Assembly (NCBI GenBank): GCA_002869565.1
Contig: PKUJ01000012.1
Coordinates: 11,729-75,728, forward strand
Length of the DNA stretch: 64,000 nucleotides
DNA from: Arcobacter sp.
Lineage (GTDB): Bacteria; Campylobacterota; Campylobacteria; Campylobacterales; Arcobacteraceae
Reading direction: 5' to 3'
The notes beneath the pieces were generated by a model that saw only the letters and a program-made list of their open reading frames with translations, was not told the DNA's origin and did no database searches. Both the position numbers and the translations under genes were made by a program. Shown here in pieces: positions 10,773-13,230 of the stretch; position 1 is the first letter of the stretch, and each line of letters starts with the position of its first letter.

Positions 10773-11855
10773 TTGAAAATAGGAAAATATGATATAAAAC
10801 ATCCCATTATCCAAGGTGGAATGGGAGTAGGAATAAGCTGGGACCAATTAGCTGGAAATGTAAGTAAAGAAGGTGGTCTTGGAGTTATATCATCAGTAGG
10901 TACAGGTTACTACAGAAATAAAAGTGAAAATGTTAATGTAGTAATGAGAAAAGATAAACCTAAAGATGTAATGAACTTTTACTCAAGAGATGCTTTTTTT
11001 GAAATTGTTGAAAATGCAAGAAAAATATGTGGAGATGCTCCACTAGGATGTAATATATTATATGCATGTAATGATTACGGGAGAATGGTAAAAGATGCTT
11101 GTGAAGCAGGTATAAATATTATTATAACTGGAGCTGGTTTACCAACAAATATGCCAGAATTTACTAAAGATTATCCAGATGTTGCTTTAGTTCCTATTGT
11201 ATCTTCAGCTCGTGCTTTGAAGCTTATTTGTAAAAAATGGAAAAAATATAATAGAGTTCCTGATGCAATTATCGTAGAAGGACCTTTAAGTGGTGGTCAC
11301 CAAGGTTTCAAATATGATGATTGTTTTAAAGAAGAATCACAATTAGAAAATATTGTTCCTCCTGTTATTGAAGAAGCTAAAAACTGGGGAGAAGATATCC
11401 CTATTATTGCAGCAGGTGGAGTTTGGAATAAAGATGATATAGATAAATTTATAGCCATGGGTTGTGCTGGCGTACAAATGGCAACTAGATTTATAGGAAC
11501 ATTTGAGTGTGATGCTAGTGCAGTGTTTAAAAATGTATTACTAAATGCAGAATCAGATGATATCAAATTAATGAAATCTCCAGTTGGATTACCAGCTCGT
11601 GGAGTAAGAACAAACTTACAATTTTCTATTGAAAATAATACTGCACCAAAAGTTCAATGTATTTCAAATTGTGTAGCTCCATGTAATAGAGGAGTTGAAG
11701 CAAAAGCAGTTGGTTATTGTATTGCCGATAGATTAGGAGCAGCTTATCAAGGTGATGAAGAAACAGGACTTTTCTTTACTGGATCAAATGGTTATAAACT
11801 AGATAAAATTATTTCAGTACATGAATTAATGGAAAAACTAACAAAAGGAGAATAA
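10773..11855 (+). CDS. Nitronate monooxygenase / FabK-like flavoprotein
   Basis: FMN-dependent TIM-barrel enzyme of the 2-nitropropane dioxygenase family. Visible are the opening HPIIQGGMGVGISWDQLAG, the phosphate-binding stretch IIAAGGVWNKDDIDKFIAMGCAGVQMATRF, and the central VEGPLSGGHQG whose histidine is in the place of the family catalytic His. A cysteine-rich CISNCVAPC segment lies near residue 295. Starts at TTG 10773 with an AAAAGG ribosome site, because the family N-terminus begins exactly there. Either a detoxifying nitronate monooxygenase or an enoyl-ACP reductase (FabK) is possible; sequence alone does not decide. Confidence 0.85.
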   Translation: MKIGKYDIKHPIIQGGMGVGISWDQLAGNVSKEGGLGVISSVGTGYYRNKSENVNVVMRKDKPKDVMNFYSRDAFFEIVENARKICGDAPLGCNILYACNDYGRMVKDACEAGINIIITGAGLPTNMPEFTKDYPDVALVPIVSSARALKLICKKWKKYNRVPDAIIVEGPLSGGHQGFKYDDCFKEESQLENIVPPVIEEAKNWGEDIPIIAAGGVWNKDDIDKFIAMGCAGVQMATRFIGTFECDASAVFKNVLLNAESDDIKLMKSPVGLPARGVRTNLQFSIENNTAPKVQCISNCVAPCNRGVEAKAVGYCIADRLGAAYQGDEETGLFFTGSNGYKLDKIISVHELMEKLTKGE

Positions 11856-11856
11856 A

Positions 11857-13230
11857 ATTTTTAAAAAATTTATTCTTCTAATTTTTATTTCTTTATCATT
11901 TAATCTTCTTCATGCTTCTGAGGATTTAACGCAAGTTTACAATGCTGCTAGAATGAACTATTTAAAAGCTGTGTTAAATGATGATGAAGATACAGAAATA
12001 AAAAATCTCAAAATACTAATCTCTTCTGGCAAAAAACTCAGAAAAAATGTATCAAAATATGAAAAAGAGTTTAAAAAATATAATAGTACGACAATCCAAA
12101 AAATTAAAAAAATAGAACCTATTAAAATAGAAAAAATTATAAAACCAAAGATCTCAAAAATAGATACAAATAAATCTCAATATACAATTGATTCAGTTTA
12201 TTCAAAAAACAACACGATAGTGATAAACTTTAAAACAAATATAACAAGGGACTATGTAAAGTTTTTTGAAAAAAAAGCTAAAAGTGGTAATCAAGATATA
12301 TATGATATAAAAGGTCGTTTTAAGGATGCACATCCAACTAAACTTGCCATAAAAGGTGTTAAACAGATTGTTATAAAGCAAGAAAAATATAACACCCTAA
12401 GAATTCTTTTTGAAGACAAAATAAATTTAAAAACATCCTATATTATAAATAAAAAACAACTTCTACTAAAAGTATCTAATATCGGCAAGCAAAAAATAAA
12501 AAAAACTAAGGCAGTAATTTCTAAATCACCTAAAATTGTAAAAACAGGACAAAATAGAGTTATCGTTTTAGATGCAGGACATGGAGGTAAGGACTCTGGT
12601 GCAGTAGGTAGTAAAAAAAGATATGAAAAAATAGCAGTATTTAAAGTAACAAAATATTTAGAATCTATACTAAAACATAGAGGGTATAAAGTATATCTTA
12701 CAAGAACAAATGATAGATTTATAAAAGTTAAAAATAGAACGGTCTTAGCTAATAAGAAAAAAGCAGACATTTTTTTATCTATACATGCAAATGCGGCACA
12801 TAAAAGTAGAATTGCAGAAGCTAATGGAATTGAAACTTTTTTCTTAAGTCCTGCTAGAAATGCCAGAGCAAAGAGAGTTGCAGCATTAGAAAATAAATCA
12901 GATGTAAGAAATATGAGTGGTTCAACAAAACAAGCCTTTTTGGAATCACTAAATAGACCAAGAATAACAGCTTCACATAAATTATCAATTGATATACAAA
13001 GAAACATGTTATTTAGTGTTAGAAAGCAGTATAAAGATGTTGTTGATGGTGGAGTTAGAGAAGGTCCATTTTGGGTACTAGTTGGGGCACAAATGCCATC
13101 AGTACTTATAGAAATAGGATATATTACTCATAAAATAGAAGGTCGAAGATTATATCAGAATAAATATCAGAAGAATTTAGCTCATGGAATTGCTAATGGG
13201 ATTGACTCTTACTTTGCAAAAAATCCTTAA
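11857..13230 (+). CDS. N-acetylmuramoyl-L-alanine amidase, probable ATT start
   Basis: Periplasmic zinc amidase (Amidase_3) that cleaves the amide bond between muramic acid and the stem peptide. Catalytic features are VLDAGHGGKDSGAVG (first zinc His), FLSIHANAAH (second His) and VLIEIGYITH near the C-terminus (catalytic Glu). An AMIN-like beta-rich region occupies roughly residues 95-185. The first ATG in frame is at 11953, but the frame stays open back to an ATT at 11857 and those extra 32 codons encode a clear signal peptide (FKKFILLIFISLSFNLLHAS). AAAAGGAG ends 6 bases before the ATT, so ATT is the likely start and the protein about 457 residues. The 3' end overlaps the convergent Nudix gene by 38 bases. 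Confidence 0.9.
   Translation: MFKKFILLIFISLSFNLLHASEDLTQVYNAARMNYLKAVLNDDEDTEIKNLKILISSGKKLRKNVSKYEKEFKKYNSTTIQKIKKIEPIKIEKIIKPKISKIDTNKSQYTIDSVYSKNNTIVINFKTNITRDYVKFFEKKAKSGNQDIYDIKGRFKDAHPTKLAIKGVKQIVIKQEKYNTLRILFEDKINLKTSYIINKKQLLLKVSNIGKQKIKKTKAVISKSPKIVKTGQNRVIVLDAGHGGKDSGAVGSKKRYEKIAVFKVTKYLESILKHRGYKVYLTRTNDRFIKVKNRTVLANKKKADIFLSIHANAAHKSRIAEANGIETFFLSPARNARAKRVAALENKSDVRNMSGSTKQAFLESLNRPRITASHKLSIDIQRNMLFSVRKQYKDVVDGGVREGPFWVLVGAQMPSVLIEIGYITHKIEGRRLYQNKYQKNLAHGIANGIDSYFAKNP

Follow-up and report, generated by a model that had tools for sequence, protein, structure and literature searches.

A conserved predicted near-cognate start codon in the Amidase_3 gene of Arcobacteraceae

We consider it likely that the cell-wall amidase encoded in the window (the whole 64,000-nucleotide stretch of Arcobacter sp. 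contig PKUJ01000012.1 that was analyzed) is translated from the AUU codon at position 11857, and that weak AUU initiation, a predicted hairpin, and coupling to the upstream gene give it a low output. The gene start at the ATT itself is strongly supported by the orthologous sequences. The features of the junction are listed in Table 1.

Table 1. Features at the junction of the nitronate monooxygenase and amidase genes, in window coordinates.
Feature	Position	Strand	Remarks
Upstream gene, nitronate monooxygenase (PF03060)	10773..11855	+	TTG start; TAA stop at 11853-11855
Shine-Dalgarno (SD) sequence AAAAGGAG	11843..11850	+	6 nt between its end and the ATT
Predicted RNA hairpin	11846..11879	+	SD, upstream stop codon, and part of the ATT paired with amidase codons 4-8; z -2.41
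ATT start codon of the amidase	11857..11859	+	
Signal peptide (f)MFKKFILLIFISLSFNLLHA	11857..11916	+	Translation from ATT; cleavage after LLHA judged by eye
N-acetylmuramoyl-L-alanine amidase, AmiA/AmiC type	11857..13230	+	457 aa counted from the ATT
First canonical codon (ATG) of the amidase frame	11953..11955	+	Rejected as start: within the mature protein, not conserved

The SD sequence of the amidase is supplied by the last codons of the nitronate monooxygenase gene, AAA GGA GAA. The open amidase frame runs from CAA 11842 to TAA 13228-13230; the preceding in-frame stop is the TAA at 11839-11841, and between this stop and ATG 11953 the frame contains no ATG, GTG, or TTG. An earlier note, made from this DNA alone, had placed the start at ATT 11857 and had held that no better start exists, given the upstream stop and the lack of canonical codons before 11953. 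Both claims stand; the SD, the stop, and the frame are as it described them. In the alignment of orthologues that it had proposed (74 of 97 with AUH, that is, AUU, AUC, or AUA), the ATT was overturned neither by a different upstream frame nor by a real ATG. Beyond the earlier note, we found that the start is kept outside the genus, that the SD and the start lie in a predicted hairpin, and that further genes in the genus are alike.

The protein matched Amidase_3 (PF01520) with an E-value of 1.8e-46 and 158.8 bits, against a cut-off of 27. The domain spans about 12562-13206, and the gene is the sole Amidase_3 match of its genome. Judged by this domain, which scores above the Pfam cut-off, and by the export signal obtained when it is read from the ATT, the gene is an Amidase_3 (AmiA/AmiC) peptidoglycan amidase. 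Read from the ATT, the N-terminus (f)M-FKKFILLIFISLSFNLLHA-SEDL is a classical Sec signal peptide. As the earlier note had claimed, a start at ATG 11953 leaves the protein without one: no hydrophobic stretch is present, and the best 12-residue mean hydropathy is 0.36. When the orthologues are read from their AUH codons, this value is at least 1.82 in 74/74, and all 74 encode a hydrophobic N-terminal core.

Translation from ATG 11953, which would yield an enzyme without a signal peptide, is very unlikely. This ATG is the first canonical codon and the expected choice of automatic annotation; however, the codon is not conserved (GTA in genome G006; ATA in G002, G014, and others), in the AUH orthologues one has to read 13 to over 119 codons into the frame before a canonical one is reached, and the hydrophobic N-terminus preceding it is kept throughout.

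Junction DNA was taken from about 100 genomes of the genus and family, and the start site was readable in 97 of them. The start codon was ATT in 67, ATA in 4, and ATC in 3 genomes; one further genome was ambiguous (ATT or TTG), and 22 had TTG, ATG, or GTG. An AUH start was present in 14 of the 19 genera with a readable site. Genera g6, g8, g9, g12, and g20 use TTG, GTG, or ATG, mostly behind a weaker SD such as AATGGTGA. In every readable genome of the family, the nitronate monooxygenase gene places a GGNGA tail ahead of the amidase start; the first G of this motif is 9-11 nt away from the start in each of the 74 AUH genomes. A near-cognate codon at SD spacing was found in 74/97 genomes, and in none of the 74 does the frame offer a canonical codon after its upstream stop and before the AUH. 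On these sequences, the amidase would be a further case of the genes with a conserved AUH-type start, the kind known from infC, pcnB, and sigR. The idea that the ATT is a sequencing or assembly error for ATG, from which it is one base apart, has practically no chance of being correct, and is ruled out because ATT, ATA, or ATC stands at the same place in 74 of the 97 genomes.

The end of the upstream stop is separated from the AUH start by 2 nt in 52 genomes, by 1 nt in 20, and by 0 nt in 2. All three relative frames of the two genes occur among the 74 AUH genomes, and the SD spacing stays within 9-11 nt. In genomes G086 and G087 the upstream TAA abuts the ATT in the same frame, so no codon further upstream is usable. 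Genes abutting with an offset of 0-2 nt might also be expected if the amidase were fused to the upstream protein through a frameshift or stop-codon read-through. Such a fusion is highly improbable; it is excluded by the occurrence of all three frames across relatives while the SD-to-ATT spacing stays, and the signal peptide would end up buried inside the fused protein.

In an RNA folding of positions 11800-11900, GGAGAAUAAA was paired with UUUAUUCUUC, which covers amidase codons 5-8. We compared the folds of the orthologous junctions to a null in which synonymous codons were redrawn. The AUH genomes had a mean of -8.1 kcal/mol versus -5.2 kcal/mol for the null (p<0.05 in 24 of 74), whereas the fold was stronger than the null at p<0.05 in only 1 of the 22 genomes with canonical starts. 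For the test at the genus level, the null used the codon usage of the remaining part of these N-termini, and the values were averaged by genus. The genus means of the fold excess were below zero in 12 of 14 AUH genera (Wilcoxon p=0.009), and the AUH genera folded more strongly than the canonical genera (p=0.038). Leucine in amidase codons 5-8 after the ATT is encoded by CTN in 36 of 38 cases, whereas elsewhere TTA makes up about half of the leucine codons. RNAalifold, applied to a 39-sequence amidase alignment, gave no consensus fold and no column-wise covariation, the register being shifted by 1-3 nt between groups. In some genera (g7, g13, and g15) the hairpin is weak or missing.

To follow the start codon through the family, we used a tree built on the upstream protein, nitronate monooxygenase (97 rows). 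On this tree the AUH or canonical label required 4 changes. Within the AUH group, the third base required at least 5 changes among T, A, and C, and none to G; genome G028, located within this group, has TTG instead. As a neutral null we took 55 fourfold-degenerate columns of the neighboring gene from the same 74 genomes. G accounted for 3.3% of the fourfold third bases, and 6 of the 55 columns (about 11%) never showed G. T is the third base of the start in 67 of 74 genomes, which was equaled by 1 of the 55 columns. The lack of ATG at the amidase start is only mildly unusual and no proof of selection; it is suggestive, 6 of 55 fourfold columns likewise lacking G.

This rarity of G at neutral positions would also fit a real but just tolerated ATT, the strong SD and the coupling making the codon nearly irrelevant, so that it drifts with ATA and ATC and has no regulatory role. 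The presence of AUH starts in transporters and kinases (see below) points in the same direction. However, T is kept to a degree seen in only 1 of the 55 fourfold columns, the hairpin would be a second brake, and ATG is generally the favored start-codon state (PMC5622118). We regard a tolerated codon with no regulatory role as unlikely.

In the reading that we prefer, a weak AUU start coupled to the upstream gene, initiator fMet-tRNA would begin the amidase at AUU 11857, placed there by the AAAGGAG that forms the end of the nitronate monooxygenase gene. Initiation at this AUU would be weak and near-cognate. By analogy, IF3 discrimination probably bears on this codon, and IF3 repression of the amidase is plausible. 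The hairpin would bury the SD and the start, and initiation would then depend on ribosomes finishing the upstream gene: by terminating at UAA 11853-11855, within the 5' arm, they would melt the stem. A stop codon so placed is classical for translational coupling, which we infer for this junction. The layout is that of a coupled pair, the nitronate monooxygenase stop adjoining the amidase start and the SD lying inside the first gene. The outcome would be little lytic enzyme, whose output would be coupled to nitronate monooxygenase translation.

An altered initiator tRNA was considered and rejected, as the initiator tRNA is present in three copies with the standard GGGCTCATAACCC anticodon stem. 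IF3 autoregulation through an infC AUU was likewise rejected: the 30 infC loci examined from Arcobacteraceae have a TTG start, and any IF3 effect on the amidase would therefore lie outside an infC AUU loop. In these loci (L101-L130) the conserved TTG stands right behind a GGGAG-type SD, unlike the AUU or AUC of infC in other bacteria.

IF3 discriminates against near-cognate starts, for which infC and sigR are worked examples (PMC5472188). The start of infC is ATT in E. coli and ATC in Streptomyces, and it limits expression through IF3 (PMC5472188, PMC9410913). A conserved near-cognate AUH start is common to infC and the amidase; however, infC is autoregulatory, whereas the amidase is a cell-wall enzyme. 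In E. coli, AUU starts are found only in infC and pcnB (PMC9410913), and by the title of a 2002 report cited in PMC9410913, an inefficient start codon limits pcnB expression at translation. E. coli pcnB and the amidase both have an AUU start outside infC; they differ in gene and phylum. We know of no coupling or hairpin for pcnB. Streptomyces sigR has a GTC start in 32 of 34 cases and GTT in 2; its repression by IF3 was shown experimentally, and changing the start to a canonical codon led to overproduction (PMC5472188). It resembles the amidase in its conserved non-canonical start and its strong SD (AGGAGGTG), and it is translationally coupled in its operon, as the amidase would be (PMC5472188). 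In contrast to the amidase, its start is GTC or GTT rather than AUH, and sigR is a regulator and the upstream gene of the coupled pair, whereas the odd start of the amidase is on the second gene, an enzyme. From infC, pcnB, and sigR it is reasonable to infer, in line with the earlier note, that the start codon may hold amidase expression down (PMC9410913, PMC5472188). In a survey of start-codon evolution, 1 of 61,358 ancestral AUG starts switched to AUU, and weak starts were compensated by stronger SD sequences (PMC5622118); the AAAGGAG before the amidase ATT agrees with this compensation.

Outside the Arcobacteraceae, the amidase junction has ATT, ATA, or ATC in most genomes examined of family f18 and ATA in all four genomes examined of family f4; in family f7 the start is mixed or ambiguous. 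The f18 and f4 loci with a seeming ATT, ATA, or ATC start are L143, L146, L147, L150, L182, L185, L277-L279, and L284-L289, and some of these starts overlap the upstream stop as ATTAA. An ATG is on offer in Sulfurimonas (f16), in Helicobacter (f13), and in most loci of the Campylobacter family (f10). AmiA of Campylobacter jejuni and Helicobacter pylori is, like the amidase of the window, a single annotated Amidase_3 enzyme; unlike it, the loci examined in f10 and f13 offer N-terminal ATG codons. In C. jejuni, cell separation and the coccoid transition fail in an amiA mutant, and amiA overexpression leads to more muropeptide dipeptides (PMC6767375). These phenotypes make a low, coupled supply of the amidase plausible. 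A literature search for unusual start codons in Arcobacter or Campylobacterota found nothing relevant.

We scanned stop-to-stop ORFs for further AUH starts, comparing 132 kb of the window's contig to two relatives, along with 400 kb of two other Halarcobacter genomes. The scan yielded additional genes with ATA, ATC, or ATT at the beginning of the conserved N-terminus, at least 3 of them Halarcobacter genes with conserved starts of this kind, and three candidates were traced through the 16 genomes of the genus. The first, a Mem_trans (PF03547, AEC-type) transporter (G001:C1:152547-153461; L349-L364, start at 1501 of the oriented locus), has ATA or ATC in 16/16 Halarcobacter genomes and never ATG. 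Its SD is AAAGGA, and in each of the 16 a predicted hairpin includes both SD and start; testing of this hairpin gave no covariation support, the registers being 1-3 nt apart. The second, a histidine kinase (G001:C1:181555-182709; L365-L380), has ATA or ATC in 16/16 after an AAAGGAG or AAAGGGG SD; in some genomes a TTG is located 6 nt upstream, directly against the SD. A paralogous kinase beside it (G001:C1:179677-180837) has a similar appearance. The third, an ABC transporter permease (PF00528; G000:C39:81973-82761, L157:1973-2761), lies about 6 kb past the window's end on the same contig; in most of the Halarcobacter genomes its start is ATC, ATT, or ATA, and two have TTG. Neither the kinase nor the permease start showed a hairpin fold like that of the transporter.

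Two candidates were rejected. An EAL-domain gene (L420-L434) is near-cognate only in genomes G001, G004, G014, and G015, and the other 11 of the 15 Halarcobacter genomes carry an ATG in frame close to its N-terminus; this is apparently a lineage-specific loss of ATG. A second sensor-kinase-like gene (G001:C1:333541-335346) varied too much within the genus to allow its start to be fixed. Roughly 7 candidates in about 320 orthologue pairs suggest that AUH starts make up about 2% of genes; this is a rough figure, and the Campylobacter control for it comprised only 13 syntenic pairs. We put forward only tentatively, as somewhat less than an even prospect, that Arcobacteraceae use AUU, AUA, and AUC as a regular extra tier of starts in this share of genes, some of them in SD-burying hairpins at coupled junctions, forming a set of genes whose low expression could be adjusted through IF3 or translation upstream.

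Starts other than AUG, GUG, and UUG are held to be very rare in bacteria (PMC9410913, PMC5622118). The near-cognate start of the amidase has persisted in evolution, and it probably limits the amount of the enzyme and links it to the neighboring gene upstream. An AUH start kept family-wide, in a gene that is its genome's sole Amidase_3 match, lends itself to studying control by start codon and coupling. Our results also suggest that gene callers will clip the export signals of such proteins in Arcobacteraceae, and that dozens of genes in each genome may be annotated too short.
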